From: a virus
Length of the DNA: 20,851 bases
Virus record (IMG/VR): IMGVR_UViG_3300033146_002575
Coordinates: 1 to 20,851 of that record
Direction: 5' to 3' (one strand)
In this document: positions 695 through 19,371 of the stretch, piece after piece
How positions within the stretch are numbered: the first letter of the stretch is position 1
Layout of the letters: each line of letters starts with the position of its first letter
Position numbers and translations under genes: made by a program
The notes under the pieces: model-generated
Told to the model about the DNA's origin: nothing
Database searches by the model: none
What the model saw: the letters and a program-made list of their open reading frames with translations, nothing else

Positions 695-907
695 ATGGAA
701 ACGAAATTTAAGAAATTATCGGAATTAATTGAGACAGGTGAATCTCCAATAGACCTAAGTGTGATTTCCAATTATATGGGAATTAATTTGTGTAGCGTAG
801 ATTCACTTGAATGGACTAGACAAGATGATGGACAGCTGGTAGATTTAAAGATTAACTTTATTCCAGCAACAGAGGCAGAGACAAAAGCTCAAGGAGAAAA
901 CTGTTAA
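695..907 (+). CDS. Hypothetical protein, 70 aa
   Basis: Not recognised. The start is supported by a strong AGGAGA ribosome binding site about 6 nt upstream and by the two promoter-like motifs before it. The predicted protein is soluble and acidic to neutral, with no membrane segment. It has a helical N-terminal third ('FKKLSELIETGE') and a likely beta segment ('GQLVDLKINFIPA'). It is the first gene after the DNA polymerase and is separated from it by about 60 nt, so it probably heads a new transcript with the small genes that follow. Confidence 0.7.
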   Translation: METKFKKLSELIETGESPIDLSVISNYMGINLCSVDSLEWTRQDDGQLVDLKINFIPATEAETKAQGENC

Positions 908-2728: not shown

Positions 2729-3124
2729 TTATTTAATTTTAACACCATCTCTTTCTTTCTGTTCATGCCAATCTCCAACAGAAGTCAATAAAAATTTTCG
2801 TTCATCTACATCAAATAAAATTGTAGTAATATAAGTATCACCCATATTAACATATTCTGCTATGATATCTCGATAATACTTATTATTTTCTTCTTCACCT
2901 TTGATCACTTCTATTCCATAACCACCGATAAGTTTATCAATTTTTTCCATGTTAGTTGTTACTTTCTGTGGAGAACCAGGATATTCCATAAGTTTTAGAA
3001 GTTCCTTGGCTTGAGGTTCTTCAATCTCTTTTCCAAATGCTTTTAATAGCTCCTTAGTTGATGGTAATTTTTCTTCGTTTAATCTTTGTTTAAACCCTTC
3101 ATAAATTGTTTCAAATTTTGTCAT
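2729..3124 (-). CDS. Putative packaged (internal virion) protein with capsid-targeting-like leader, 131 aa
   Basis: Minus-strand gene with AGGAA upstream of its start. Residues 1-17 (MTKFETIYEGFKQRLNE) match the leader shared by four other genes here and end in L-N-E, the (L/I)-x-E form cut by T4-type prohead proteases. The mature part has a helical segment and then a conserved-looking beta-rich domain: 'IDKLIGGYGIEVIKGEE', then 'EYVNMGDTYITTILFD', then 'LLTSVGDWHEQ'. From memory, this C-terminal type recurs in phage hypothetical proteins. It has no known enzyme motif. It is transcribed with the 3133-3444 gene from a TATAAATA box. Packaging into the head is inferred from the leader only. Confidence 0.7.
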   Translation of the reverse strand: MTKFETIYEGFKQRLNEEKLPSTKELLKAFGKEIEEPQAKELLKLMEYPGSPQKVTTNMEKIDKLIGGYGIEVIKGEEENNKYYRDIIAEYVNMGDTYITTILFDVDERKFLLTSVGDWHEQKERDGVKIK

Positions 3125-3132
3125 AATATTTC

Positions 3133-3444
3133 CTATATTGTTGTTTGATTATTTTGAGATTGATTTTTAGAATCATTTGCTTTTTTCTTATTTAATCTAT
3201 CCACTTCTTGTGCAATCTTATCCTTTTTAGATTGTATATTATCCTTTTCTTTAGCAACTTTTATTTCATCATCAATAATTCTCGTTTTTTCTTGGCGAAT
3301 TTTGTTTTCTTCTGGGTATTTACTTGGATTATTTCTAATCGTGTCTTGAAGGTTTTTTTTCTGTAACAATAAAGATTTGATATCTTCACCATCTTCATTT
3401 AATCGTGACTTAATTGCTTCATATAATTTTTCAAATTTATTCAT
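3133..3444 (-). CDS. Coiled-coil protein with capsid-targeting-like leader, 103 aa
   Basis: First gene of the minus-strand pair, with an AAGGA ribosome binding site. The leader MNKFEKLYEAIKSRLNE ends in L-N-E, like its neighbour. The rest is nearly all charged helix with long Lys/Glu heptad-like stretches (residues about 20-95) and an Asn/Gln/Thr-rich tail, so an elongated coiled coil is expected. The only 8-nt gap to the next gene indicates co-transcription. If the leader is real, cleavage after residue 17 would leave an 86-residue helical head protein. No function is recognised; the alternative is a scaffold-like or DNA-binding accessory. Confidence 0.7.
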   Translation of the reverse strand: MNKFEKLYEAIKSRLNEDGEDIKSLLLQKKNLQDTIRNNPSKYPEENKIRQEKTRIIDDEIKVAKEKDNIQSKKDKIAQEVDRLNKKKANDSKNQSQNNQTTI

Positions 3445-3474
3445 ATTAATCCTTTTATTTGTTTCTATGTTTAT

Positions 3475-3482
3475 TATTTATA
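3475..3482 (-). promoter_or_regulatory. T4-late-type promoter box TATAAATA (minus strand)
   Basis: The + strand reads TATTTATA, so the minus strand carries TATAAATA, the T4 late consensus, 30 nt before the ATG of the 3133-3444 gene. It sits back to back with the AGTATATTAA motif that faces uvsX, forming a divergent control region of about 90 nt. Confidence 0.55.
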
Positions 3483-3489
3483 AAAAAAG

Positions 3490-3499
3490 AGTATATTAA
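3490..3499 (+). promoter_or_regulatory. AGTATATTAA motif upstream of uvsX
   Basis: Exact copy of the motif found at 653, 7667 and 8353. It ends 32 nt before the uvsX start, the same distance as at the 695 gene. A transcript from here would plausibly cover uvsX, the 37-residue ORF and the helicase. The promoter role is inferred from position and recurrence. Confidence 0.5.
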
Positions 3500-3531
3500 A
3501 GTAATAATTTAATATAATAAGGAGAAAATAA

Positions 3532-4704
3532 ATGGCAACATCTAATTTTTTAAAAAAAATTCGTAAAAAAACAGGCAGTACAAGTTTTAAAGATAGTAAA
3601 TATGCAGAACCGTCACATTATATTAATACAGGGGATTATGCATTAAATAGAATTATAAGTGGTGATGTACATAATGGAATACCTGCTGGAAGAGTTATTA
3701 TACTTGCAGGAGAGACTGGCACATTAAAAACAGTACAAGCAATCAAACTTGCAGTCAATGCATTAAATGAAAATAAATATGACGTTGTATTTTATTTTGA
3801 CAGTGAAGGTGGTGCACCTAGAGAAATGGTTATTAGTATGGGTGGTGATCCTGCAATGATAGAACATGTTATTGTTGATAGCGTAGAAGATGCCACAATT
3901 AAAATTTTAACAACTTACCAAGAAATTTTAAAAGAAAAAGAAACCAACCCTAAGTTTAAAGCATTATTGATTATGGATAGTATTGGTGCAACATTGACAG
4001 AGAAAATTAATCGTGATATTGAGAAAAATCAACTTAAATCCGATATGGGAAATGCTGCCAAGCTCATAGGTACAATGGTACGTGGTTGTACTATACCTGC
4101 ATTGAAAAGTGATTCTTCTATTATTTTCATTAATCATATTTATGAAGATCCTGCTGCAATGTATGAACGTAAAATTAAAAATCAAAGTGGTGGGTTACGT
4201 TTACAGTATATGTCTACTGTCACGATCCAATGTAATAAAAAATTAGAAAAACCAGAAGCTGTAAAAACTAAAATAAAAAAAATCGACGAGGGTGGTGAAA
4301 AAAAGATTACAAAAATTAAAAATAAAGAAGAAGCGTTTTATAGTGGTTCTGTAATGAAATTCTTTACTGTTAAAAATCGTTTATGTAGACAATTTATTGA
4401 AACAGAAGTTTATGTTGATTTTAAAAAAGGGTTCGGTGTAAAGAAATATATGGGATTAATTGATCCTGCAATAAAATATGGAATTATTACTAATGAAAAA
4501 CAAGGCTATTTACAGATTCCTAGTGTTAATGATAAATCATATCGACGTTCTCAACTTGAAGGTGGAACGAAAGCTGACGAAATATGGGCAAAGATTCTTG
4601 ATGAGTTCAATGAAAAATCAAAAGAAGATTTAAAATATAGTAGTATTCATGATAAAGATATTGAAGAAATTGAAAAAATAGTAGAGGATGTTAAAAATGC
4701 CTAA
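3532..4704 (+). CDS. uvsX: UvsX-like RecA-family recombinase
   Basis: A 390-residue recombinase that forms filaments on single-stranded DNA and drives strand exchange with ATP. In T4 this serves recombination-dependent replication. The Walker A loop at residues 60-67 reads GETGTLKT, with Leu where most P-loops have Gly. T4 UvsX has the same kind of change (GPSKSFKS). Walker B is 'ALLIMDS' (about 144-150). The following 'SDMGNAAKLIGTMVRGC', 'INHIYEDPAAMY' and 'NQSGGLRLQYMSTVTI' align with the T4 order 'SDMTRAKTMKSLFR', 'INHTYETQEMF' and 'GGGTGPMYSADTVFI'. The C-terminus is acidic and helical. AAGGAG precedes the start, and the next gene overlaps its stop by 8 nt. Confidence 0.92.
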   Translation: MATSNFLKKIRKKTGSTSFKDSKYAEPSHYINTGDYALNRIISGDVHNGIPAGRVIILAGETGTLKTVQAIKLAVNALNENKYDVVFYFDSEGGAPREMVISMGGDPAMIEHVIVDSVEDATIKILTTYQEILKEKETNPKFKALLIMDSIGATLTEKINRDIEKNQLKSDMGNAAKLIGTMVRGCTIPALKSDSSIIFINHIYEDPAAMYERKIKNQSGGLRLQYMSTVTIQCNKKLEKPEAVKTKIKKIDEGGEKKITKIKNKEEAFYSGSVMKFFTVKNRLCRQFIETEVYVDFKKGFGVKKYMGLIDPAIKYGIITNEKQGYLQIPSVNDKSYRRSQLEGGTKADEIWAKILDEFNEKSKEDLKYSSIHDKDIEEIEKIVEDVKNA

Positions 4705-4810
4705 TTTAGAAATAATAGCAAATGTAATAAACTATCATGGTACAAAAATATCAGAACTTCAAAAACAAATACGAATTCTTTCTGATAAAATTGAAAACGA
4801 GGAAGATTAA
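4697..4810 (+). CDS. Small coiled-coil ORF overlapping uvsX, 37 aa
   Basis: Begins inside the last codons of uvsX (8-nt overlap) and ends 3 nt before the helicase start, so it fills the junction exactly. The product is 'MPNLEIIANVINYHG' followed by a Lys/Glu/Gln amphipathic helix ('KISELQKQIRILSDKIENEE') with leucine/isoleucine spacing of a short coiled coil. No function is recognised. The tight translational coupling and the protein-like composition argue that it is real. Confidence 0.6.
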   Translation: MPNLEIIANVINYHGTKISELQKQIRILSDKIENEED

Positions 4811-4813
4811 TAT

Positions 4814-6187
4814 ATGGATGATATAAAATCACAAGAATTAATTAGTCTAAGTGATGAACAGATGGAACAAATAATTCTTAAAAAGTATTTTACTGATATT
4901 AATTATTTTACAATTATAAATGAGTTTTGTGAAAGTAGATTCTTTCAGAACATACATTCTAAGAAAATAGTTAATATATTAAAAAAATATTATCTAAAAT
5001 ATGAAAAGATGCCTACTGATAATATGTTGAAACTTATTTTTCAGAAGTATGAGAAAAAGGAAAGTGGTACTGGTCAGGCAATGAAACGAGAGTTTGATAC
5101 TGCTATTAATCTAAGTATTGAACAAGATGAAGATTTTGTTAAAGAAAACGTATTAAAATTTATTAAACATAAAAGTGCATATTTTTCTTTTATGGATCAT
5201 ATTGACGGTGTTACTATTAAAGGTGATGTTAGTGATTGTTTAAGTGATTTTCAAAAGATTTTGAGTATTGGTTTCAATGATGATCTAGGTTTTGATTATT
5301 TTAAAGAACATCATGTACATAGAGATAATATGGCTAATCCTGAATTTAAACTATCTACAGGTTATACTCAAATTGACAGAGTAACCTTTGGTGGTTTACC
5401 TAAACTAGGTAAATCTATGTTTGTAATTGCTGCACAACCAGGTTTAGGTAAATCGTTATTTATGAGTAATTTTGCAGTTAATTTTTTACAACAGGGATTA
5501 TTCCCTGTTATTATTACATTAGAAATGTCAGAAGAGATGTATGCAAATAGAGTGGATGCTCATATAAGTTCAATGAATATAAATGACTTAAGAAATAATC
5601 TTGATGGTTTAGGTGATAAAATTGAGGGATTTAGTCAATTAAATCCGAATGCAAAATTATTAATAAAAGAATTTCCACCAAATACAATTTCATGTGTACA
5701 TATTCAAAACTATTTAGACAAAATATCTACACTTGGAAGAAAACCTGATGTTATTTTTGTGGATTATATTAATTTATTAAAATCAAATAGTGGAAATAAT
5801 AATCAAGGTATGTACGAAAGAGTAGGTGATATATGTCGTGAATTACGTGCATTAAGTTATCGATACAGTTGTCCTTTAATTACTGCTACTCAATTGAATA
5901 GGTCAGGTGTTGATACTTCTGACGTATCAATGGATAAGATATCAGAATCGATGGGAACTTCTCAAACTTCGGATTTTGTTGGAGCATTGTGGCAACAAGA
6001 GGGTGATTTAGAGGCATGTCGAATAAATATGAAAGTATTAAAAAATAGATTGGGTGGATTAGTAGGTAAAAATATGCAATTTAATGTAAATTATAATACT
6101 TTAAGAATAACAGATATGGTGGATATTGAAGAAATTTCCAGTACATCTGCAACAGAGAGTCTAATGACTGATTTGGAGGATTTATAA
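4814..6187 (+). CDS. 41: Replicative DNA helicase, DnaB/T4 gp41 family
   Basis: A 457-residue protein, close to T4 gp41 (475). The N-terminal 150 residues are helical, as in the DnaB collar. The RecA-like motor follows. Walker A AQPGLGKS spans residues 207-214, 'ITLEMSEEMYANRVDA' (234-249) matches the DnaB H1a glutamate region, and Walker B 'VIFVDYINLL' covers about 313-322. 'LITATQLNRSG' with its Gln is the sensor motif, and 'KNRLGGLVG' is near the C-terminus. The last residues are acidic. It unwinds the lagging strand as a hexamer and would partner the gp61-like primase (13186) and probable gp59-like loader (7680). Its stop overlaps the next start as TAATG. Confidence 0.92.
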   Translation: MDDIKSQELISLSDEQMEQIILKKYFTDINYFTIINEFCESRFFQNIHSKKIVNILKKYYLKYEKMPTDNMLKLIFQKYEKKESGTGQAMKREFDTAINLSIEQDEDFVKENVLKFIKHKSAYFSFMDHIDGVTIKGDVSDCLSDFQKILSIGFNDDLGFDYFKEHHVHRDNMANPEFKLSTGYTQIDRVTFGGLPKLGKSMFVIAAQPGLGKSLFMSNFAVNFLQQGLFPVIITLEMSEEMYANRVDAHISSMNINDLRNNLDGLGDKIEGFSQLNPNAKLLIKEFPPNTISCVHIQNYLDKISTLGRKPDVIFVDYINLLKSNSGNNNQGMYERVGDICRELRALSYRYSCPLITATQLNRSGVDTSDVSMDKISESMGTSQTSDFVGALWQQEGDLEACRINMKVLKNRLGGLVGKNMQFNVNYNTLRITDMVDIEEISSTSATESLMTDLEDL

Positions 6188-6474
6188 TGTACGGATTTTT
6201 TAAAAGTGCTAGTGAAGATATAATGGATATGATCGATTGTGATGATTTAAATTTACAATTAAAAACAAAATTTGGAACAGAAGGGATAAAATTAGAAGTT
6301 AAATTAAAAAAAATTATTAAAGTTAAAGATAAATTTAAAATATTATCTGATGAGTTGTCGTTACCTGAAAAAGATTTACTTTATTTAATGGTTAAAACTT
6401 ACCCTAATATTTTTAACCATAGATTAATTAAATTTATTAGAAAAACTTATTTGTTTCCAGAGGAAGATGTATAA
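6187..6474 (+). CDS. Hypothetical protein, 95 aa, coupled to helicase
   Basis: Start and stop codons are shared with its neighbours through TAATG at both ends, so translation is probably coupled to the helicase before it and the gene after it. The protein is helical and lysine-rich in the middle ('KLEVKLKKIIKVKDKFK'), with a patterned C-terminal helix ('LYLMVKTYPNIFNHRLIKF'). No motif is recognised. Its place in the helicase operon suggests a role in DNA replication, but nothing in the sequence proves it. Confidence 0.75.
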   Translation: MYGFFKSASEDIMDMIDCDDLNLQLKTKFGTEGIKLEVKLKKIIKVKDKFKILSDELSLPEKDLLYLMVKTYPNIFNHRLIKFIRKTYLFPEEDV

Positions 6475-6773
6475 TGAAATATATAAATATAAAAGAATTT
6501 AGAGAAATGGGATATTTACAGGAAATTAATAGATTATTTTTACATCGTTTAGGGTTAGCGTTAGAAATTCAAATAGATGAAGAAGGTAATGAATGTTTAG
6601 GTGGTATTTGGGATTATCGTGAAGATGATGAAGGTATAATATATGATTTAAAAAATTCTTGTAATGATCGAAAGGATAGATTTAAAGAAAAATCTGAATT
6701 TATACGACAACAATTAGAAAAATATGATAAAGTACGTAAAAAGAATTTTGGATTTACAATAGAATGTATATAA
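6474..6773 (+). CDS. Conserved phage protein, 99 aa, paralogue of 12627-12941
   Basis: The N-terminal half is clearly homologous to the 12627 gene. Here it reads 'KEFREMGYLQEINRLFLHRL' and 'GLALEI', then 'GGIWDYREDDEGIIYD'. There it reads 'KEFVEGGYLQEVNRQFFHGL' and 'GLAMEV', then 'SGLWDFRQIKGGILF'. The C-terminal half is a charged helix (Arg/Lys/Glu). From memory, this 'GYLQE-NR-FFH-LGLA' type recurs in many phages with no known function. Translation is coupled to the 6187 gene by TAATG. A TATAAATA at 6482-6489 lies in its first codons and is probably fortuitous. Confidence 0.75.
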   Translation: MKYINIKEFREMGYLQEINRLFLHRLGLALEIQIDEEGNECLGGIWDYREDDEGIIYDLKNSCNDRKDRFKEKSEFIRQQLEKYDKVRKKNFGFTIECI

Positions 6774-6787
6774 ATATTTTATAAATA
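6769..6787 (+). promoter_or_regulatory. Two T4-late-type boxes (TATAAATA) in tandem
   Basis: TATAAATA occurs at 6769-6776 (overlapping the previous stop codon region) and again at 6780-6787. The second ends 21 nt before the ATG of the leader-bearing repeat protein at 6809. A late transcript starting here would begin the mRNA close to the AAGGA ribosome binding site. Confidence 0.5.
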
Positions 6788-6808
6788 TATATTAAAATAA
6801 GGAAAACT

Positions 6809-7598
6809 ATGAATAAATTTCAAAAATTATATGAAACTGTTATAAATGAATATAAGAATTATGAAAATCTTACAGAAAATAGACAATGGTTTAAAGATAA
6901 AGTAATCGATTTTAAATTTAAAAATTGGATGAAAAAAGAAATTAAAAAAGGAAATTTAATTAAAAATGATGATAATACTTATGATGCAATAAGATTTAAT
7001 ATGTCTAATGGTGGGTTTAATGATTTAAAAAATATACCAATAAAATTCAGAAATGTTTCAGAATACTTTTTTTGGTTTCGATCTAAGTTATCATCACTTG
7101 AAAATGCTCCTGAAAAAGTTGGGGATGATTTTGGGTGTAGTTATAACAAATTAACATCACTTCTTGGTTGTCCTAAAAGTGTAGGTGGAACTTTTGATTG
7201 TCAATTTAATTATTTAAAATCTCTTCAATATGGTCCGACAAATGTAGAAAAAGATTATTTATGTGTAGGAAATGATTTAACATCTTTAAAAGGAATTCCA
7301 AAAGTAATTAAAGGGGGGGTTTTCGTGTACAAAAAACAAATTAACTTCTTTAAAAGGTTGTCCTGAAAAAATTGCAGATTATTTTCTGTGTTATGATAAT
7401 AATATAACAAGTCTTAAAGGGTGTCCTGATAAAGTTAAAGGGGATTTTTCTTGTAATAATAATATTTTAACCTCTCTTGAAGGTTGTCCTAAAGAGGTTG
7501 GAGGATATTTTGATTGTAAAAACCAAAAAAATGGTCATAATTTTACAAAGGAAGATGTTAAAGCTGTATGTAAAGTTAGTGGAAAAATAATTGTATAA
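6809..7598 (+). pseudogene. Leucine-rich-like repeat protein with capsid-targeting-like leader, frame broken at G7
   Basis: The frame from 6809 stops at 7364-7366 after 185 residues, but the last 15 are out of register. Removing one G from the G7 run at 7313-7319 restores a 262-residue protein ending at 7598, and the repeat pattern continues exactly across the join. The leader is MNKFQKLYE with L-T-E at residues 21-23. Residues about 25-70 are a charged globular part. From about 93 there are seven 21-residue repeats, for example 'KLTSLKGCPEKIADYFLCYD', with consensus L-T-S-L-x-G-C-P-x-x-V-x-G-x-F-x-C-x-x-N. These are LRR-like solenoid units found in phage proteins. Packaging or injection is inferred from the leader. 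The break may be a read error, slippage or an on/off switch. Confidence 0.75.
7085..7526 (+). repeat. Seven 63-nt coding repeats (21-residue LRR-like units)
   Basis: Diverged in-frame units, each with L-x-S-L, C-P or x-P, and F-x-C positions conserved. A weaker eighth unit may precede them (from about residue 72). The phase is kept only if one G of 7313-7319 is skipped. Confidence 0.8.
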
Positions 7599-7666
7599 CT
7601 GATATTTTATTATATTTTATTTTAAGAGATTTTTTTTCTTTTATTGTTTAATTGTTAGAATTTCAT

Positions 7667-7676
7667 AGTATATTAA
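7667..7676 (+). promoter_or_regulatory. AGTATATTAA motif immediately before the 7680 start
   Basis: Exact copy of the motif seen at 653, 3490 and 8353, but only 3 nt upstream of the ATG. No ribosome binding site fits between. Either the mRNA is leaderless or nearly so, the start lies further inside, or the motif is not a -10 box. Confidence 0.4.
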
Positions 7677-7679
7677 AAT

Positions 7680-8354
7680 ATGACATACACACCAGAACAA
7701 TTATATAATTTATATCATAGAAAAATAATGTATCATGTAAAAAATGTACATGTTAGAAATGTTAAAAATTATGATAAAATAAAAGCTAGTCCTGATTGGG
7801 TTTATTTTGAAAATTTTACAAAAAGAGTTAATAAGAACATGGGTCAATTAAATCCTGATTTATATATTGATTCTTTAATTGACTTTTACGATGGTTACTT
7901 CAATCTACAGTTACTAACACATTTAAAAGGAATAAAAATATATAGATTATATATTAAACAGCAGAATATTAATTGCAACAAAGATGAAGTTAAAACAAAC
8001 ATCAAACAAGGAATTGATTTTATAGTTGATTATATGGTTGAAAATTCTATGAACGATATTTATGAATATGTAAATGAAGGTAAAGATATTTATCCTACAT
8101 TAGCAAAACATTTTTATAGTGGTAAAATATCATTACAATTATTGGTTTTAATTCCTGATATGAAAATTATTATCCAAAATTACCCTAAAGATATTATTAA
8201 TCAGTTCTTTGATAATATATTATTAGAATATGATAATATAAGAAAAAATCTTATTAGTTATCCTAAATTAAAGAAAATCAGTGATAATTTTGAAACAATA
8301 ATTAAAAATATGATAAATAAACGAAATCTAGGGTTAAAAAGTAGAAACAAGTAG
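7680..8354 (+). CDS. 59: Probable T4 gp59-like helicase loader
   Basis: A 224-residue, mostly helical protein, close to T4 gp59 (217). The order of features fits. The N-terminal helix 'EQLYNLYHRKIMYHVKN' resembles gp59 'VYKLYLMIKQHMNG'. Next come 'YFENFTKRVNK' (gp59 'FFQKLSEKYK') and 'FYDGYFNLQLL'. 'YPTLAKHFYSGKISLQLLVL' corresponds to the gp59-family stretch 'IFKLLQSNIISFETFILL'. A C-terminal segment 'EYDNIRKNLISYPKL' lies where gp59 has its last helix. Such a protein binds fork DNA and gp32 and loads gp41, and it lies between those two genes here. There is no ribosome binding site before the ATG at 7680; Met17 (7728) is an alternative, but the first 16 residues look genuinely coding. The assignment is from memory of family patterns and is moderate. 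Confidence 0.6.
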   Translation: MTYTPEQLYNLYHRKIMYHVKNVHVRNVKNYDKIKASPDWVYFENFTKRVNKNMGQLNPDLYIDSLIDFYDGYFNLQLLTHLKGIKIYRLYIKQQNINCNKDEVKTNIKQGIDFIVDYMVENSMNDIYEYVNEGKDIYPTLAKHFYSGKISLQLLVLIPDMKIIIQNYPKDIINQFFDNILLEYDNIRKNLISYPKLKKISDNFETIIKNMINKRNLGLKSRNK

Positions 8355-8362
8355 TATATTAA
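8353..8362 (+). promoter_or_regulatory. AGTATATTAA motif overlapping the previous stop codon
   Basis: Fourth exact copy. It starts in the stop codon of the 7680 gene and ends 24 nt before the ATG at 8387. It probably drives the small genes up to the gp32-like gene. Confidence 0.45.
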
Positions 8363-8386
8363 AGCAAATAGAAAATGAGGAAATAT

Positions 8387-8648
8387 ATGAAAGAAACGAA
8401 TGAAAGAAAATTTGAATCAATTGAAGATGTCTCAATGTTTTTATTACATGAAAAAGGTTGTACTGACGAAGAAACAAAAGGGTTATTAAAATTTTTTTCA
8501 TAATGATAAATGGGAAAAGGTAATATCTTCAGGTAAAGAATCATTTAAAGATTTGAAGGAATTAACATCTGAATTGACAAATGATATGATATCCTGTATG
8601 AATGATGCGGATGGAGAAAAGTTTGTAAAAAATGGGGGTCTAATATAA
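8387..8648 (+). pseudogene. Small hypothetical gene broken at a T7 run, about 86 aa if restored
   Basis: The ATG at 8387 has GAGGAA upstream. The frame stops at 8501-8503 after 38 residues. Removing one T from the T7 run (8492-8498) lets it continue to the stop at 8646-8648. The restored product begins 'MKETNERKFESIEDVSMFLL', passes 'LLKFFHNDKWEKVISSGKES' and ends 'EKFVKNGGLI'. The restored frame is uninterrupted and protein-like on both sides of the run. It is a charged helical protein with no recognised family. The break may be a read error, a natural mutation or a site of slippage (+1 or -2). Confidence 0.6.
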
Positions 8649-8660
8649 TAAGGTGATAAA

Positions 8661-8939
8661 ATGATACAGGTTGAAGATAAAGATATGAATAACGATTATA
8701 AATTTATAGCCAAAAAAGATTCTTGGTTTAAAGAAGGTAGTGAAGTTCAATTAACAACAAATTGTATACATGCAGGTGATTTTATAGGTGTAATTAAGGT
8801 AACTGAAAATTCTCATACTCCATTATATCGTAAAGAGTTAAAAGGTAAATTATCTGTTGAGTTTGAAGATCAGGAATTATGTCAATGGGAAGAATTTGAT
8901 ATTTACAATACTCAAAATCAATTAATTGAGGTTATATAA
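8661..8939 (+). CDS. Hypothetical phage protein, 92 aa
   Basis: An AAGGTGA ribosome binding site precedes the ATG. The small protein is probably beta-rich: 'YKFIAKKDSWFKEGSEVQLT' and 'AGDFIGVIKVTE' at 13-52 suggest strands around a turn, then 'QELCQWEEFDIYN' near the end. From memory, the 'KKDxWFKEGxEV' pattern followed by 'C-x-W-x-E-F' occurs in phage hypothetical proteins of unknown role. No catalytic motif is seen. It lies in the run leading to the gp32-like gene. Confidence 0.7.
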   Translation: MIQVEDKDMNNDYKFIAKKDSWFKEGSEVQLTTNCIHAGDFIGVIKVTENSHTPLYRKELKGKLSVEFEDQELCQWEEFDIYNTQNQLIEVI

Positions 8940-8998
8940 TGAAACAATAGAATGTATATGGAACGATAATATAAAAGATATAGAATATTTTTAAATAA

Positions 8999-9097
8999 AT
9001 GAATAAAGAATTTACACGTAAACATATTATACAATTTTGTTTATTGGTAACTTCGTTAGAAAATTATATAGAATGTAAAGTAGATAACAATCAATAA
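8999..9097 (+). CDS. Possible short ORF before the gp32-like gene, 32 aa
   Basis: An open frame of 32 residues ('MNKEFTRKHIIQFCLLVTSL' and on), ending 10 nt before the gp32-like ATG. It has a hydrophobic centre but no good ribosome binding site. It may be a real small gene, a leader peptide or chance. In the preceding 8939-8994 stretch, an ATG coupled by TAATG stops after three codons, while the next frame reads 'ETIECIWNDNIKDIEYF', so another broken small gene is possible. Confidence 0.3.
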   Translation: MNKEFTRKHIIQFCLLVTSLENYIECKVDNNQ

Positions 9098-9107
9098 GGA
9101 GAAAGTT

Positions 9108-10118
9108 ATGAGTAAATTAGAAGAACTGTTTAACGCAGCACACACAGAGGAACTCGAAAAAACGAAAATCACAAGTAAACCGAGTTTAAAGAATGATCCA
9201 AGACTGATTCATTTTAAACCAGGTAATACTTTTCGATTTAGGCTTCTTTTAACACCAGGTGATGAAAGAAAAAGTCCTTTTATTAACAAGAACACACATG
9301 TGTTTTATGATAAAGAAGGTAGTAACCGTTTAAATTATGTAGTTTGTTCTACTAGTGAGTATATGGCAGGTCGCAATGGTTACAACCAATGTCAGACTTG
9401 TGGTCAGCTTAATAAATGGTGGGATGAAGGACAGAAAGGTTCTCAGACTTCCAAGGAATTGTATAGTACGTTTAGAAGACAATTTAACGGATTTGTATTA
9501 GTATATGTAATTAATGATCCATTAAATGAAGAAAATAACGGTACAGTGAAAATTATGAGATATGGTGCAAATATTCGTAAATACCTTAAAGCTAAAATTC
9601 ATGGAATTAATGATAAAGACGATTCCGTAATTGAGGGTGCTGATTCAATTGGTATCGAAGCATTCAAACTTAAAGGTGGTAGGGATTTAATCATTACAGT
9701 TGGAGAAAAACCCGTCATTGAAAACGGCAAAAAGAAAGTATATCCAGAATATACTTGTGAATTTGCTTCTAAAACATCCGATATATCTTTAACAGAAAAA
9801 CAGTCTGAAAAGTGTGCTAAAGAACTAAGGTTTGATGAAGATTTTTATGAAGTATCAACTAAAGAAGAAAGAGATGCTTTTTACAAAGAGTTTGTGTTAA
9901 GAGAAGATGTTAGTTCAGAGGTTGATACTACAACTAAAACTTCTACAATAACAGATACACAAGAACCAATGCCTGATAATGTTCAAGATGTAAAACCTGA
10001 AGATGTAAAACCTGAAGAAGTAAATGATATCATTAAAGAAGATATAAAACTTGATGAGAGTGATTTGGATGGTATAGATGATATTGAGGATCTATTAAAA
10101 GATTTAGATGATATTTAG
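9108..10118 (+). CDS. 32: Single-stranded DNA binding protein, T4 gp32 family
   Basis: A 336-residue protein with the gp32 layout. A basic/polar N-terminus (residues 1-20) would mediate cooperative binding. The OB-type core starts at 'DPRLIHFKPGNTFRFRLLL'. A zinc site is formed by His64, Cys80, Cys95 and Cys98 ('QCQTCGQL'); T4 gp32 uses His64, Cys77, Cys87 and Cys90. 'RRQFNGFVLVYVINDPLNEE' and 'NNGTVKIMRYG' match T4 '[20 protein letters not shown]' and 'NEGKVFKYRFG'. The C-terminal tail is very acidic and ends 'DIEDLLKDLDDI', like T4 'DDTDLDDLLNDL', the segment that recruits partner proteins. A Lys-Pro-Glu-Asp-Val duplication lies in the linker. A strong AAGGAG precedes the start. Confidence 0.9.
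   Translation: MSKLEELFNAAHTEELEKTKITSKPSLKNDPRLIHFKPGNTFRFRLLLTPGDERKSPFINKNTHVFYDKEGSNRLNYVVCSTSEYMAGRNGYNQCQTCGQLNKWWDEGQKGSQTSKELYSTFRRQFNGFVLVYVINDPLNEENNGTVKIMRYGANIRKYLKAKIHGINDKDDSVIEGADSIGIEAFKLKGGRDLIITVGEKPVIENGKKKVYPEYTCEFASKTSDISLTEKQSEKCAKELRFDEDFYEVSTKEERDAFYKEFVLREDVSSEVDTTTKTSTITDTQEPMPDNVQDVKPEDVKPEEVNDIIKEDIKLDESDLDGIDDIEDLLKDLDDI
9987..10016 (+). repeat. 15-bp tandem repeat in the gp32-like linker
   Basis: GATGTAAAACCTGAA occurs twice head to tail, encoding D-V-K-P-E twice before the acidic tail, with a third degenerate half-unit (E-V) after it. This fits slippage in a flexible linker, where length is tolerated. Confidence 0.85.
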
Positions 10119-10128
10119 GGAGTACAAC

Positions 10129-10342
10129 ATGAGTAACCCATTTCAAGGTGTTTTACCTAACACAAATCCTTATACTGTAAAAAAAGATAAGTGATATTAA
10201 ACGTGAAATTTATTATAATAATAGCTTAATATTTTCTTATAATGGGTTGATTGATGATAAAGTGGTAGCAGATATTGCCTTATCAATGTATGAAGCATAT
10301 AAGAATGGGTATCATGAATGTTCAATAAAGGTATTGAATTAA
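10129..10342 (+). pseudogene. Small hypothetical gene broken at an A7 run, about 70 aa if restored
   Basis: The ATG at 10129 (GGAG upstream, 10 nt after the gp32-like stop) reads 21 residues, 'MSNPFQGVLPNTNPYTVKK' and on, then stops at 10192-10194. Dropping one A from the A7 run at 10179-10185 gives an open frame to 10342 that continues 'ISDIKREIYYNNSLIFSYNG' and ends 'HECSIKVLN'. The sequence is protein-like on both sides. The restored protein is small and mixed alpha/beta with no recognised family. It sits between SSB and clamp genes. Confidence 0.6.
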
Positions 10343-10347
10343 TTAAT

Positions 10348-10381
10348 AATTGGGTGGTATAACAAACGATACCACCCAATT
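10348..10381 (+). terminator. Strong 13-bp hairpin between small genes, terminator or processing signal
   Basis: AATTGGGTGGTAT (10348-10360), an 8-nt loop, and the perfect complement ATACCACCCAATT (10369-10381). Only two T's end the stem and ACGGAG (the next ribosome binding site) follows directly, so it lacks the U tract of a standard terminator. It could pause or end SSB transcripts, protect an mRNA 3' end, or control access to the next start at 10394. Confidence 0.6.
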
Positions 10382-10393
10382 TACGGAGTAGAT

Positions 10394-10576
10394 ATGGAAA
10401 TTGATATAGTTGATAAATTGAATATACATATGGTTTATAAATCTAATGAAGAATTTTTACGTATTGATAGTGAAAATTGGTTTCAAGGAACTGAAGAACA
10501 TTATCAGTTTTTAGATGATTGTATAGATTTAGAATATGAGTTTCAAGAATATTTAAAACAGGAAAAACATATATGA
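10394..10576 (+). CDS. Hypothetical acidic protein, 60 aa
   Basis: Starts 12 nt after the hairpin, with CGGAG as ribosome binding site, and overlaps the clamp gene by 4 nt (ATGA). The product is small and strongly acidic ('MEIDIVDKLNIHMVYKSN', then 'EEHYQFLDDCIDLEYEFQE'), probably two helices. No family is recognised. Translational coupling to the clamp makes a role in replication or in clamp expression possible, but there is no direct evidence. Confidence 0.65.
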   Translation: MEIDIVDKLNIHMVYKSNEEFLRIDSENWFQGTEEHYQFLDDCIDLEYEFQEYLKQEKHI

Positions 10577-11343
10577 AAATAAATATTAATAATGTAGAAG
10601 TATTTTCTATGTTTTTAAGTAGTTTACTTAAAATTGTACCTAGTTGTAAATTTATTATTACACCACAAGGCACAAAAGTAAAAATTAAAACAGAAAGTAA
10701 AAGTCTTAGAGGAGTATTTCAGACAGATAGTATTACATCAGAAGAACAAGTTGAATTTTGTTTTGGAGATTTAAGTAAATTTTTTAAATCTGTTTCATTA
10801 ATCAAGGATATAGAAAAGTTAAACCAAACAGAATTAGTTTTTGATGAGCCCTTTATTCGATATAAAAATAAAGTAACTTTTAAATTAAAAACAATTAAAG
10901 AAGAACGTATAACTAAACTTGTTGATAATATAGGTATTGATAAGAAATTTAAAACACAATATAATATTATAACAAATACAGAAAAAATTAAAAAAGTATT
11001 AAAATGTGTCAATATTGTAGATGATAGTGATGCTAAAGTTTATTTTGTTAAAACTACTAATGGTATGGTTTGTGAAATAGATAATAAATGTAATCAACTG
11101 AGTGACAGTGTAGGTATTCCTTTATGTTCCAATACTAATTTAACAGGTGAAGTAGTTGAAGTTTTGTCTACTACTTTAGATAATTTTCGATGTTTTGGAA
11201 TTTTACCATCAGAAAATATAAATATAAATATGACAACAGAACGAGTTATTGTTGTTACATCAGCTTATCGGTCTCCAAAGACTGACAGTATAGATAGTTT
11301 TTATATAGCTATGAAATTATATAGTAGTATTTTAAAGGGGTAG
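10573..11343 (+). CDS. 45: DNA polymerase sliding clamp, T4 gp45-like
   Basis: A 256-residue protein (T4 gp45 has 228) with the two-domain, beta-rich pattern of PCNA-fold clamps. The N-terminal helix 'FSMFLSSLLKIVPSCKFIIT' is followed by strands 'GTKVKIKTESKSLRGVFQTD', and 'VEFCFGDLSKFFKSVSLI' matches the gp45 'DLNSFLSILSL' element. 'LVFDEPFIRYKNKVTFKLK' follows. Domain two contains 'DAKVYFVKTTNGMVCEIDN' and 'RCFGILPSENININMTTER', then 'IAMKLYSSIL' at the C-terminus. As a trimer it would tether the polymerase and, in T4, also activate late transcription with gp33/gp55, which fits the TATAAATA boxes here. No clamp loader gene is in the window. Confidence 0.8.
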   Translation: MKININNVEVFSMFLSSLLKIVPSCKFIITPQGTKVKIKTESKSLRGVFQTDSITSEEQVEFCFGDLSKFFKSVSLIKDIEKLNQTELVFDEPFIRYKNKVTFKLKTIKEERITKLVDNIGIDKKFKTQYNIITNTEKIKKVLKCVNIVDDSDAKVYFVKTTNGMVCEIDNKCNQLSDSVGIPLCSNTNLTGEVVEVLSTTLDNFRCFGILPSENININMTTERVIVVTSAYRSPKTDSIDSFYIAMKLYSSILKG

Positions 11344-11345
11344 TC

Positions 11346-11459
11346 ATGGCAGGTAAAGGTAGTAAACCACGTCCAAGAAAAATTTCTAAAAAAGAATGGG
11401 ATGATAATTATGATTTGATTTTTAAAAAAAAATCAAAGGGTATTAAAAATGAAAAATAA
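11346..11459 (+). CDS. Conserved small basic phage protein, 37 aa
   Basis: Begins right after the clamp stop and overlaps the next gene by 11 nt. The sequence is 'MAGKGSKPRPRKISKKEWDD', then 'NYDLIFKKK', then a lysine-rich end. From memory, proteins beginning 'MAGKGxxPRP' with a later 'NYDxIF' recur in many unrelated phages, always short and of unknown function. That makes this very likely a real gene despite its size. The A9 run at 11424-11432 is read in frame without a break. Confidence 0.7.
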   Translation: MAGKGSKPRPRKISKKEWDDNYDLIFKKKSKGIKNEK

Positions 11460-11754
11460 CGTATACACAAAAAGTTATTTTATAAAACGTATGAAAGATA
11501 ATGGGTTTCATATTAATACATTAGTCGTATATCCTGAATCGGATATACGATCATGGACAATTAATATTAACCCAAAATTACATGATATTTTATGTACTTG
11601 TTACAAAGAAAATTCTCAAAATTTTTATTTTAATTTTCAATGTCAACAAAACAATAGTATCACAGTTAAAACCATGAGTATGAAAACTATTTTTGAAATG
11701 GTTAATAAATTGATTGATGGTCATACCGTTTATGAAAGTTTAAAGGTTAAATAA
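11449..11754 (+). CDS. Hypothetical protein, 101 aa
   Basis: Overlaps the previous gene by 11 nt and the next by one base (TAATG), so it is part of the clamp operon. It shows a basic N-terminal helix ('KSYFIKRMKDNGFH') followed by a beta-rich centre ('TLVVYPESDIRSWTININ', then 'NFYFNFQCQQNNSITVKTMS') and a C-terminal helix ('MKTIFEMVNKLIDGHTVYES'). No family is recognised and no catalytic motif is visible. Confidence 0.7.
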   Translation: MKNNVYTKSYFIKRMKDNGFHINTLVVYPESDIRSWTININPKLHDILCTCYKENSQNFYFNFQCQQNNSITVKTMSMKTIFEMVNKLIDGHTVYESLKVK

Positions 11755-12209
11755 TGGTTAGAAATAAACCTCTATATATAACTGATAAACAACGTAAATT
11801 ACACCGTGGACAAATTAGATTTTTTTTAGAATATAACGTTGTAGAATTTGTTTTTAAACGACGTATATTTCCTCCTAAACCACGTAGACTGAATTTTGGT
11901 AAACCAACACCTATCAGAAGGATAGTATGTACATCTAATTGGGATTTTTTAAAAAAGAATAGTAAAGTTTTTAATTTTAAAACTCCAAGGGGTCCGAAAA
12001 GACCAGAACATTGGTACAGAAAAAAGAATTTAGTAATTGTATATGATTTAATTATTCAAAATTTTAGAAGTGTTAGTTTAGATGATTATCGAATAATGAA
12101 CTCGTATCCTATTGATACAGAATTAGATAGAGAAAAATTTACAGAAAAATATAGTATCATGAAAAAATCGAAAAGTAGAAATAATTTAATTAGATTATTT
12201 CATAAATAG
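11754..12209 (+). CDS. Hypothetical basic protein, 151 aa, possible small beta-barrel
   Basis: Starts in the preceding stop codon (TAATG). The protein is rich in Lys and Arg and probably binds nucleic acid. The N-terminal part includes 'VVEFVFKRRIFPPKPRRLNF'. The centre has 'CTSNWDFLKKNSKVFNFK', then 'WYRKKNLVIVYDLIIQNFRS' with 'VSLDDYRIMNSYPID'. The 'VIVYDL...FRSVSLDDYRI' pattern resembles small SH3-like beta-barrels in phage proteins, but this is weak. It is intact across a T8 run near 11820. The final helix is basic. Function unknown. Confidence 0.65.
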   Translation: MVRNKPLYITDKQRKLHRGQIRFFLEYNVVEFVFKRRIFPPKPRRLNFGKPTPIRRIVCTSNWDFLKKNSKVFNFKTPRGPKRPEHWYRKKNLVIVYDLIIQNFRSVSLDDYRIMNSYPIDTELDREKFTEKYSIMKKSKSRNNLIRLFHK

Positions 12210-12218
12210 AGGTATAAA

Positions 12219-12623
12219 ATGAAAACACATGTGATTGCAGGATATAATATTCCTGAAACAGTAGTATGTAATGTATGTAAGAAAGAAATAAAAGTTGAAT
12301 ATGAAGTAAGATGTGGGTTAAAGGTTGCCAGTAATATCAGAACGTTTATATGGAAATGTGAAGATGAGCCAATGATTTCATGTTTAAATTCGAAATGTAT
12401 AGAACAGCGAGGTATGAGATTTTCAAATATAGTCAGTAAGAAAGTTAAATCCATTGTAATTCGTGCAGAATGGACTGACGATGAAGGAATAACAAGAGAA
12501 TTAGATGCATGTAACATAAACAATAATATATGTAGTGATGAATTTAAAGAAGATATTAAAAAAGATTATAATATCGATTTTGATAAATTAGTAGATGGTG
12601 TTAAATTTTTAAAACAGGAGTAA
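12219..12623 (+). CDS. Hypothetical zinc-binding-type protein, 134 aa
   Basis: An AGAGGT ribosome binding site precedes it. Cys17-x2-Cys20 ('VCNVCKKE') and Cys55-x4-Cys60 ('SCLNSKCIEQ') suggest a four-Cys zinc site in the N-terminal half, with additional Cys at 32 and 47. The C-terminal half is acidic ('EFKEDIKKDYNIDFDKLVDG'). No family is recognised. It has a 3-nt gap to the next gene, so it belongs to the run that ends in the primase. Confidence 0.65.
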   Translation: MKTHVIAGYNIPETVVCNVCKKEIKVEYEVRCGLKVASNIRTFIWKCEDEPMISCLNSKCIEQRGMRFSNIVSKKVKSIVIRAEWTDDEGITRELDACNINNNICSDEFKEDIKKDYNIDFDKLVDGVKFLKQE

Positions 12624-12626
12624 ATT

Positions 12627-12941
12627 ATGCCAAAACAACAAAAAATGAGTATGAAAGAATTTGTAGAAGGTGGTTATCTTCAAGAAGTAAATCGTCAATT
12701 TTTTCATGGTTTAGGTTTAGCAATGGAAGTTAAAAAAACAGGAAATGAATATGAATTTTCTGGATTATGGGATTTTAGACAAATAAAAGGTGGAATTCTA
12801 TTCGGAGAAAAAGTAATAAAAGACAAGGAATTTATTGACAGAACTAATAATATCAAAGGAATTCAGAAATTAAATAACTCTTTGAGAAAACAAGCATATA
12901 ATGAAATAAGACAATCAATTCCTAAAACAGTAGACGAATAA
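12627..12941 (+). CDS. Conserved phage protein, 104 aa, paralogue of 6474-6773
   Basis: The first 60 residues share the 'GYLQE-x-NR-x-F-x-H-x-LGLA-x-E' signature, then 'GLWDFRQIKGGILFGEK', with the 6474 gene. The C-terminal part is a different charged helix ending 'RQSIPKTVDE', so the copies diverged or were acquired separately. AGGAG precedes the start. TAATG couples it to the next gene, which in turn overlaps the primase, just as the other copy sits behind the helicase. The role is unknown, but both copies travel with helicase-primase genes. Confidence 0.75.
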   Translation: MPKQQKMSMKEFVEGGYLQEVNRQFFHGLGLAMEVKKTGNEYEFSGLWDFRQIKGGILFGEKVIKDKEFIDRTNNIKGIQKLNNSLRKQAYNEIRQSIPKTVDE

Positions 12942-13189
12942 TGTTAATTTATCTATCAGAAATAAATAAAATTATTAATACTGATGAAATTTCAGATGTT
13001 AATGCAAATTATAATGTAGAAACATCTGAAGATTTTGCTCAAGTATATGTTAATACTGCAATGGATGCAAAATTACCAATAGAAGAACAGCCACAAGATT
13101 ATTGTACTGTGGTTTTGAAAAATAAAACAAAGATATTTTTAAATATAAGTGTTGAGGAATTTTGGAAGTTAATACAAAGTAAAATATGA
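12941..13189 (+). CDS. Hypothetical small beta protein, 82 aa
   Basis: Shares its ATG with the previous stop (TAATG), and its own stop overlaps the primase start by 4 nt (ATGA), so all three are translationally coupled. The pattern 'MLIYLSEINKIINTDEISDV', a variable insert, then 'CTVVLKNKTKIFLNISVEEF' and 'WKLIQ' resembles short FlbD-like beta proteins, where a strand pair is followed by 'V-x-x-S-x-E-E'. This is a fold-level resemblance only. No enzyme motif. Confidence 0.65.
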   Translation: MLIYLSEINKIINTDEISDVNANYNVETSEDFAQVYVNTAMDAKLPIEEQPQDYCTVVLKNKTKIFLNISVEEFWKLIQSKI

Positions 13190-14169
13190 TAGTCGAAGAA
13201 GATATTAAATGTTATGTAGAAAACCGGCTTCCTGAAATTGTGAACCATATTCAGAAAACACGGGATTGTTTTCGTTTTAGATGTCCGTTATGTGGAGACA
13301 GTAAAAAATCAAGACTAAAAGCCAGGGGTAATTATTATCGTAGAGAGGGTACTTATCATTGTTTTAACTGTGGAACTACTATAGGTGGTCTGTACATCAT
13401 TGCACAGCTAGGTGATCTTGACATTAATGAAGTTAAAAAAGATTACCTACGTACATTTATACATCTCAGAAATGAACCTCGTCAGATAATCAAGAAAGAA
13501 GTAATCAAAGTAGAAAAATTTGAAGTCCCTGATCATTGGGTTGATATACCTAAAGATATATTACAGAAATATGTTTTAGATAGAAAAGTAATGCAAGCCA
13601 AAGGTGTTCCTAAAACTTGGAGACTTTATTACAATGAAGAAACCGATCGAATTGTTTTACCATGGGTCAGAAATAATGAAATAGTTTATTATCAAGAACG
13701 TTCTATACGACATTGGCAACCAGAGAAATATAGATTTCCATCTAAAATGAAAAAAGACATTTTCGGAATAGATATGATAGATGAAACTTGGAAATATGTT
13801 TTATTTTTTGAAGGAGTTTTCGATAGTATTTTTGTAAAAAATGGTATCGCTATTGGTGGACTATATCCGACAATTGAACAATTTGAATACTTAAGAAAAT
13901 TAGAAATTAATCAGGAATTGGTGTGGTGGCCTGACAATCCGTGGTTAGATTTGTCTTCTCGTAATAAAATTATATCTCAAGCCGAAAGGTATCCTACCCA
14001 AAAAATCTACATGTGGAGTAAAAATACTCCTGTTAAAGATGTTAATGATTTGGTACTAAATATCAACGATGTTGACTTCTTTTTTAATAATAAATCAGAA
14101 ATAGAAAATCGAATTACTACATTAAGTAAAGCCGTAATTATGTTAAAATTTGACAATGATGTCTTATAA
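13186..14169 (+). CDS. 61: DNA primase, T4 gp61/DnaG-like
   Basis: A 327-residue primase. The N-terminal zinc ribbon uses Cys33-x2-Cys36 ('RCPLCGDSKKS') and Cys59-x2-Cys62 ('YHCFNCG'), which recognises the template start site in this family. A linker region leads to a TOPRIM core: 'LFFEGVFDSIFVKNGIAIGG' at 207-225, with Glu209 and Asp213; 'WWPDNPWLDLSSRNK' at 248-261, carrying metal-binding aspartates; and 'KDVNDLV' at about 284-290. It makes RNA primers on the lagging strand with the gp41-like helicase. Its start overlaps the 12941 gene by 4 nt. It is followed by a TATAAATA box and a separate operon. Confidence 0.9.
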   Translation: MIVEEDIKCYVENRLPEIVNHIQKTRDCFRFRCPLCGDSKKSRLKARGNYYRREGTYHCFNCGTTIGGLYIIAQLGDLDINEVKKDYLRTFIHLRNEPRQIIKKEVIKVEKFEVPDHWVDIPKDILQKYVLDRKVMQAKGVPKTWRLYYNEETDRIVLPWVRNNEIVYYQERSIRHWQPEKYRFPSKMKKDIFGIDMIDETWKYVLFFEGVFDSIFVKNGIAIGGLYPTIEQFEYLRKLEINQELVWWPDNPWLDLSSRNKIISQAERYPTQKIYMWSKNTPVKDVNDLVLNINDVDFFFNNKSEIENRITTLSKAVIMLKFDNDVL

Positions 14170-14181
14170 ACTAATTATTTT

Positions 14182-14189
14182 TATAAATA
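14182..14189 (+). promoter_or_regulatory. T4-late-type promoter box TATAAATA
   Basis: Lies in the 47-nt gap after the primase, 27 nt before the ATG of the first leader-bearing gene at 14217. This is probably the late promoter of the 14217-15343 operon. Confidence 0.55.
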
Positions 14190-14216
14190 AATATAGAACA
14201 TAATTATGGAGACTAT

Positions 14217-14600
14217 ATGAAAAAATTTGATAAACTAATTGAAAGTACTAAATCAAAAATACAGATTAATGAAAGTAAATACGTAATTACTGACATTAAA
14301 ACACCTATAGGAAAAAAGATTTATACTATTTTAAATGATGCAAAAATGGATATTAAAATTAATATCGAAAAACTATTTAAGAAAAGTGATGAAAATCGTG
14401 GTGTTATAAGTAATACCGTTCTTCAAGAAATGCCTGACTTTATTACACAAGTTGCTAACCTTGAAAGAATGTCTACATTTAAAGACAGTTTCAATACTGA
14501 AATTGAAGAACCTAATTTTGATGATACTCTTGACGATTTAGATTCTGATATTGAATCTGATGACCTTGAAATTGATGATGATATTGAAGAAACTAACTAA
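14217..14600 (+). CDS. Putative packaged protein with capsid-targeting-like leader and acidic tail, 127 aa
   Basis: The leader MKKFDKLIESTKSKIQINE ends in I-N-E, a prohead-protease-type site at residues 17-19. The body is basic to neutral ('KTPIGKKIYTILNDAKMDIK', then 'LQEMPDFITQVANLERMSTF'). The last 30 residues are almost entirely Asp/Glu, with repeated D-D and D-L-E patterns. GGAG precedes the start, after a TATAAATA box. An acidic late protein could act as an internal head protein or scaffold-like factor; that is inference. Similar leaders occur in four other genes here. Confidence 0.7.
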   Translation: MKKFDKLIESTKSKIQINESKYVITDIKTPIGKKIYTILNDAKMDIKINIEKLFKKSDENRGVISNTVLQEMPDFITQVANLERMSTFKDSFNTEIEEPNFDDTLDDLDSDIESDDLEIDDDIEETN

Positions 14601-14614
14601 AAAAGGAATATAAA

Positions 14615-14944
14615 ATGAATAAATTTGACAAAATATTTGAAGAAACAATGAATGAAATGAATTACGAACAAGCAAGTGATGAAGATTATAATAAAATAGC
14701 AGATGCTGCTAATTTATCACCGAACGAAACAAAAATGTTTATTTCTGTTATGAAAAATAGATTTAATGGTACTATGTACTCTCCTAGTTATGCATCAAAA
14801 TGGGCAAATAGAATTAAAAAACAAACTGCTTGGATTTATGGTGATAGTTCAACTAGAAAAATTTTAGTTAAACTTGGTTATAAATTAGGTGAAGAAGAAA
14901 AAGAAATTAAAAAGTCTCAAGAAGAACAAAAGAAGAAAAAATAA
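14615..14944 (+). CDS. Hypothetical protein with leader-like N-terminus, 109 aa
   Basis: Second gene of the late operon, AAGGA upstream. The N-terminus MNKFDKIFEETMNEMNYE fits the shared leader but lacks a clean L/I-x-E site (nearest are M-N-E and M-N-Y-E). The middle 'LSPNETKMFISVMKNRFNGT' and 'YASKWANRIKKQTAWIYGDS' looks like a compact helical domain, and 'TRKILVKLGYKLGEEEKEIK' with a lysine/glutamate-rich tail ends the protein. No family is recognised. The next gene begins directly after its stop. Confidence 0.7.
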   Translation: MNKFDKIFEETMNEMNYEQASDEDYNKIADAANLSPNETKMFISVMKNRFNGTMYSPSYASKWANRIKKQTAWIYGDSSTRKILVKLGYKLGEEEKEIKKSQEEQKKKK

Positions 14945-19363: not shown

Positions 19364-19371
19364 TATAAATA
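19364..19371 (+). promoter_or_regulatory. T4-late-type promoter box TATAAATA
   Basis: Lies 17 nt before the ATG of the endonuclease-like gene and just after the reductase stop. Several T4 homing endonuclease genes are also read from late promoters. Confidence 0.45.

Follow-up and report, generated by a model that had tools for sequence, protein, structure and literature searches.

Why should five otherwise unrelated genes, scattered through the replication region of a phage, begin with nearly the same nine residues? The genes lie in the 20,851-base virus record IMGVR_UViG_3300033146_002575 (hereafter the window), a fragment encoding 33 predicted proteins, and the element in question is their shared N-terminal leader. 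Proteins carried in phage heads act ahead of any phage gene expression, and the best studied of them, T4 IPI, disarms a host restriction enzyme; to our knowledge, head-carried proteins are too diverse to be detected by homology. An original prediction, made from this sequence alone, proposed that the five starts are capsid-targeting-like leaders. We consider it likely that they are, with the leader removed in the prohead and marking packaged, perhaps injected, cargo. If a short leader and a late promoter do mark cargo in this way, head cargo would be predictable from sequence alone, uncultured phages included.

Five genes with a shared start

The AT-rich window comprises a T4-like phage replication block encoding a DNA polymerase C-terminus, an exonuclease, a UvsX-like recombinase, a DnaB-like helicase, a gp32-like protein (under the Pfam cut-off), a probable primase and a ribonucleotide reductase, and its source is an uncultured T4-like virus of bacteria. 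All five open reading frames (ORFs) of the original prediction are present as described (2729 and 3133 on the minus strand; 6809, 14217 and 14615 on the plus strand) and encode 103–185 amino acids (aa); the two minus-strand genes are named by their low ends, 2729 and 3133, and have start codons at 3124 and 3444. A Shine–Dalgarno-like AGGA, GGAG or AGGAA lies a few bases 5′ of each ATG. The starts MTKFETIYEGFKQRLNE, MNKFEKLYEAIKSRLNE, MNKFQKLYETVINEYKNYENLTE, MKKFDKLIESTKSKIQINE and MNKFDKIFEETMNEMNYE (2729, 3133, 6809, 14217 and 14615, respectively) have M-x-K-F-[DEQ]-[KT]-[LI]-[YFI]-E in common, and all five are amphipathic. Beyond the common K3, F4 and E9 noted originally, position 7 is also L or I in every case, and each leader therefore holds [LI]-x-E at residues 7–9; the original count of four leaders with this cleavage motif is correct for residues 12–23 and overlooked the site at 7–9. 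Gene 14945, next in the 14217 operon, lacks the leader.

A six-frame search of the window for K-F-x-x-[LI]-x-E gave six matches, all of them at an ATG (the five genes and the gene at 695, considered below); the 5,367 internal windows taken from the predicted proteins gave none. Chance would supply about 0.006 such starts compared with the 5–6 observed, and the probability of at least 5 of 33 starts carrying the pattern is 1e-9 to 1e-13. A blind screen for N-terminus sharing, covering 3,041 ORFs from the window and from its relatives, recovered T4 ipII/ipIII and other leader sets, the largest set being that of the window. These and the following statistical tests are small, the sequences within one group are related, so that counts overstate independence, and ORFs of relatives were called mechanically. 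The exchanges seen within the leader are conservative (D/E/Q at 5, L/I at 7, Y/F/I at 8) and therefore point to constraint at the protein level. In BLASTP comparisons among the 33 proteins, similarity between leader proteins falls mainly within residues 1–20 (61% over residues 1–18 for 2729/3133; 73% over 1–11 for 3133/6809). The few weak longer alignments start at residue 1 (for example 14615/6809, 28% over 68 columns, E=0.002) and suggest no convincing body homology, and ungapped comparison of the bodies of leader pairs gave negative or near-zero scores, in keeping with the initial description of the remaining sequences as unrelated. A further [LI]-x-E at residues 10–25 is found in 4/5 leader proteins and 8/28 other window proteins (Fisher p=0.047); it is only modestly enriched and therefore a weaker element than the shared leader.

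The five genes belong to three transcription units, in all of which the T4 late-promoter octamer TATAAATA (PMC1524935) stands 22–31 nucleotides (nt) upstream of the first ATG, compared with 2/29 other genes (Fisher p=0.002). One copy (3475–3482, minus strand) lies 31 nt upstream of the ATG at 3444 and serves the 3133–2729 pair; another (6780–6787, plus strand) lies 22 nt upstream of the ATG at 6809, with a second copy at 6769–6776; the third (14182–14189, plus strand) lies 28 nt upstream of the ATG at 14217 and serves 14217 and 14615. Enrichment over the whole window was discarded as an argument (13 octamers found, 9.6 expected, not enriched); placement alone matters. The relative closest to the window among those found is a 39 kb IMG/VR contig (L001, L128 and L129); the two have the helicase, gp32-like and primase genes and a small gene in common. 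On this contig the octamer stands before gp18-, gp19- and gp25-like genes and also before two leader-like genes, MSLFKKAFNQELVNE and MDLDSKLIFEAYNKHNANPLTE, and in this group it thus appears to be used by late genes. Late expression of the window's leader genes is supported at the level of promoter sequence only.

IMG/VR scans with the UvsX, ribonucleotide reductase and 14615 proteins revealed no sequence closely related to the window. With degenerate-DNA leader patterns, one match of interest was obtained, L001, and the check made at the other loci showed no leader-like gene start. As a separate observation, the sole IMG/VR match to the exact leader MNKFEKLYE (L001 2–301, minus strand) belongs to a 200-aa protein (MNKFEKLYESAIQRFTRGGFLTGDLVKFTE..) that lies opposite baseplate genes of this closest relative.

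The gene at 695–907 (plus strand, 70 aa) has a leader-like start, METKFKKLSE (METKFKKLSELIE), with TATAAATA 21 nt upstream, and was considered as a sixth member and set aside. Its product is 77% identical over 47 aa to a protein of the giant Salmonella phage SPAsTU (L105), far above the window's other matches, and its SPAsTU and LAh_8 relatives appear co-linear with it at the N-terminus, so that its start looks inherited rather than swapped in.

Leader and body as separable modules

The gene at 2729 provides the clearest view of the junction between leader (3074–3124, minus strand; residues 1–17, predicted cut after LNE17) and body (2729–3073, minus strand; 114 aa, isoelectric point (pI) 5.0), the latter being a conserved phage domain with GGYG[IV]E and YVNxGDxY. 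This body forms a small phage family with relatives in L088 and L098–L104. Two leaderless relatives with good ribosome sites, in L102 (ATG 4205) and L104 (ATG 5824), start at the equivalent of residue 18, directly after LNE17, and the leader is likewise absent from the relative in L101. In an AlphaFold model of the 2729 protein, residues 3–17 form a separate low-confidence helix and the body is modelled with high confidence, with predicted local distance difference test (pLDDT) values <50 at the break (residues 14–17); a fold search of this model against the PDB gave no match at E<=0.001. Leader and body are separable in this protein.

One relative of the 2729 body has a different setting. On a 60% GC contig (L099), it is the first domain of a 1,285-aa protein (5995–9852) with many ..E/A.. 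stretches and an internal repeat-like ADAMIERAMKGEPIFE/A, next to a gene (3854–4315) starting MNRADKLIERELKGTRNPLNE/A. The 1,285-aa product looks like a head polyprotein with a leader code of its own; the S77 match on this contig is weak only (E=1.5e-4).

The other four genes divide in the same manner. The leader of 6809 (6809–6877, plus strand) has sites at LYE9, INE14 and LTE23, and its body (6878–7366; 162 aa, pI 9.6) is leucine-rich-repeat-like (N-x-L-x-S-L-x-G-x-P) and 43% identical over 107 aa to a protein of Vibrio phage TDDLMA, with a relative also in the 735 kb phage LR756501. The TDDLMA gene adjoins a DnaB-like helicase gene, and neighbouring genes there carry MKFKEYL- and MNFKEFI-type leaders. 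For 3133, the leader (3394–3444, minus strand) ends in LNE17 and precedes a lysine-rich, highly charged body (3133–3393, minus strand; 86 aa, pI 9.3) that has no convincing family match in Pfam or PHROGs. The 14217 leader (14217–14273, plus strand; LIE9 and INE19) is followed by a body with an acidic tail (14274–14600; 108 aa, pI 4.1). The 14615 leader (14615–14668, plus strand) has [LI]-x-E at residue 9 only, with M-x-E at 14, and precedes a 91-aa body (14669–14944; pI 9.6); no relatives of this protein were found, the IMG/VR scan included, and a search of the genome contigs with A5 likewise gave no relatives. Three of the predicted mature bodies are basic (pI 9.3–9.6), as are the T4 internal proteins (IPs).

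Head proteases of the T4 type are encoded by relatives of the window. The S77 (gp21) protease is found in Vibrio phage TDDLMA (E=1e-25) and in 6/14 contigs of the window's helicase clade (E ~1e-36). The clade gp21 itself starts MALRLLVE/T, and a scaffold-like protein has ..ILKE/A near its start; both starts read as compatible with cutting after [LI]-x-E.

Leaders, cyanophage virions and the readings weighed

Published virion proteomes allowed leaders of the T4 type to be compared with actual virion content. The T4-type start pattern M-x(1,2)-[FYW]-x-x-[FYLW]-[LIVM]-x-E was derived from contigs around gp41 (L006–L085), where it marks 26/1,042 starts, 23 times the internal rate; TATAAATA lies upstream of 9/26 marked genes and 35/1,016 others (odds ratio 15, p=3e-7). 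The marked proteins include kinase-like, cytidylyltransferase and DUF6267 proteins, with the Pfam domain beginning at residue 14–15. Fixed beforehand, this pattern was applied unchanged to S-CREM2, for which a virion proteome has been published (PMC10665884 Table 3), and to S-SCSM1. In S-CREM2 it marks an S-adenosylmethionine (SAM) hydrolase, an APH-like kinase and a cytidylyltransferase, all three virion-detected, giving 3/28 virion-detected non-structural proteins compared with 0/24 structural and 0/167 undetected (p=0.003). In the 74 kb part of S-SCSM1 (114 proteins), it marks 1/8 virion proteins, a nicotinamide mononucleotide (NMN) adenylyltransferase (NMNAT), and 0/106 others. Pooled by hand, the two phages give 4/36 versus 0/273 (p ~2e-4); looser patterns, picked after the data were seen, add two detected and two undetected S-CREM2 proteins. 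T4-type leaders are thus linked to virion presence in two cyanophages, a link that these counts support. A weak kinase match in S-CRM01 (L006) also carries such a leader, MISFDQFLSEK; PMC10665884 cites a report of a protein kinase from S-CRM01 virions, which may differ from this gene product. The S-CREM2 authors were undecided whether virion enzymes are packaged or contaminants (PMC10665884), a question on which a cargo-marking leader would bear: leaders on the kinases, NMN adenylyltransferases and SAM hydrolase found in such virion preparations argue for packaging over contamination. In the literature searched, which fell short of most subscription journals, only one paper, a review of T4, treats both capsid targeting and cyanophages, so that extending the former to cyanophage virion enzymes seems little described.

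Two further observations concern these phages. A virion-detected S-CREM2 protein annotated as Cas9/Csn1-like (L221 7704–10313, minus strand) has a leader-like LRFASFMAE/AA at residues 17–25, which may mean that the true start is the CTG of residue 17 or that the leader is internal; together with the SAM hydrolase, it suggests packaged nuclease or counter-restriction cargo. In S-SCSM1, seven virion-annotated proteins are encoded in a run between the gp41-type helicase and gp61-type primase genes (L226 86357–93306, record coordinates), several of them behind nATAAATA; leader genes are also found in this helicase–primase neighbourhood both of the window and of L006–L085.

The reading that we favour for the window is that its leader loads the five proteins into the prohead. 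The genes would be transcribed late from their own TATAAATA promoters, despite their position among replication genes, while heads assemble; the amphipathic N-terminal segment, with F4, L/I7 and Y/F/I8 sharing a face, would attach to the scaffolding core as the prohead grows; a gp21-type protease would cut the precursor after [LI]-x-E (E9 and/or E14–E23); and the small proteins released in this way would remain alongside the DNA inside the head and probably pass into the next host. We infer packaging, cleavage, core binding and injection of the five proteins. The original T4-like interpretation is thereby partly supported and retained as the best explanation, backed by the promoters, the leaderless relatives, the relatives' gp21-type proteases and the cyanophage proteomics. 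The leader fails the T4-type consensus, having Y/F (I in one) at position 8 and its E at 9. We therefore describe the leader as working like that of T4 and do not place it in the same leader family. This failure is also one of several points that count against head loading. The cyanophage proteomics bears on T4-type leaders and not on that of the window, and gene starts in the window's helicase clade show no enrichment of the window-type pattern (0/1,069 starts). The 20.8 kb window, a fragment, contains no protease, scaffold or capsid gene. Further [LI]-x-E sites show the modest enrichment given above, the fifth leader (14615) has none past residue 9, and two bodies are acidic (pI 4.1 and 5.0), unlike the basic T4 internal proteins.

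The rival that deserves most attention, which we nevertheless regard as unlikely, is that the leader serves as a peptide for docking to some other complex of phage or host (the replisome, a modified RNA polymerase or a host target), the five products being uncleaved, unpackaged, co-recruited late effectors. The amphipathic start of all five, the location of their genes among replication genes and the absence of this leader from the replication regions of relatives would suit such a role, but head packaging is the better fit to the late promoters, to the further [LI]-x-E in 4/5 and to the parallel with T4 and the virion-detected cyanophage enzymes; leaderless relatives also begin at the predicted cut site, against docking. 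It is less probable still that the genes are diverged copies of one ancestor, with the leader as the slow-evolving part of a paralogous family: in DNA, the leaders of 3133 and 6809 do agree at 26/27 positions, and 3133/2729 and 14217/14615 are adjacent pairs, but the bodies lack convincing similarity, and those of 2729 and 6809 have separate outside relatives, lacking this leader, in unrelated phages. Chance, or a 5′-coding constraint by which an A-rich start favours translation, hardly comes into consideration: the AT-rich window and the commonness of K and N codons at gene starts would favour it, but both the expected number of matches and the blind N-terminus screen speak strongly the other way.

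A broader and distinctly tentative proposal, to which we give somewhat less than even weight, goes beyond the window. T4-superfamily lineages might each use their own short head-loading tag as a code, such that a tag plus a late promoter would make any gene injected cargo, and the tag would reveal which counter-defence and takeover proteins the head of a phage contains; K-F-x-K-[LI]-[YFI]-E of the window would be one such code, with tandem protease sites.

Neighbouring genes and known leader systems

Three features lie outside the leader genes. The ribonucleotide reductase ORF (16487–19360, plus strand) is apparently interrupted by a small intein (about ..NPC/VVGSTIIN ... VVHN/CGE..). Downstream, an ORF with many TCxKKYGVDNVxQ repeats (19389–20849, plus strand) follows TATAAATA at 19364 and looks similar to a late-expressed homing-type gene, and a related repeat is present in Vibrio phage TDDLMA. 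Two paralogous small proteins (6474–6773 and 12627–12941) are 48% identical over 58 aa and share the motif YLQE[IV]NRxFxHxLGLAxE.

The closest functional parallel is the T4 capsid targeting sequence of IPI, IPII, IPIII and the Alt propeptide. T4 propeptides are 10–19 residues long and cut by gp21, with IPIII targeting depending mainly on residues 4 and 7 and processing on 8 and 10 (PMC9026906), and T-even internal proteins are diverse, with only the targeting sequence in common (PMC3012670). T4 IPII and IPIII start MKTYQEFIAE and IPI starts MKTFKEFTSTTTPVSTITE, so that short and long leaders both have precedents. As in T4, the window has a short N-terminal leader on unrelated small proteins, an aromatic at residue 4 and a hydrophobic residue at 7 (F4 and L/I7 in 5/5), and [LI]-x-E at, or close to, the end of the leader (at residue 9 in all five and at residues 14–23 in 4/5). 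Unlike in T4, the sequence is K-F-x-K-[LI]-[YFI]-E rather than Y/F-x-E-F, one [LI]-x-E lies inside the core at 7–9 with a second at 14–23 in four leaders, clear TATAAATA promoters precede the leader genes, and the cargo bodies are unrelated to T4 IPs: they gave no Pfam or PHROGs family match and, in tblastn against loci including T4 segments, no T4 match. Marine and cyanobacterial T4-like phages (S-CREM2, S-SCSM1 and S-CRM01) resemble the window in that unrelated proteins encoded close to helicase and primase genes bear a leader, often with TATAAATA in front, and several of these proteins are virion-detected; their leader consensus is M-x-x-F-x-x-F-[LI]-x-E and their cargo consists of large enzymes, in contrast to the 10–19 kDa proteins of the window. 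A further parallel is offered by ejection proteins of the SPN3US/phiKZ type, for which propeptides cut in head maturation and ejection of the proteins into the cell are reported (PMC10052503, PMC7411985); these phages use a different protease and different proteins, and share with the window, where it is predicted, the removal of a propeptide by a prohead protease.

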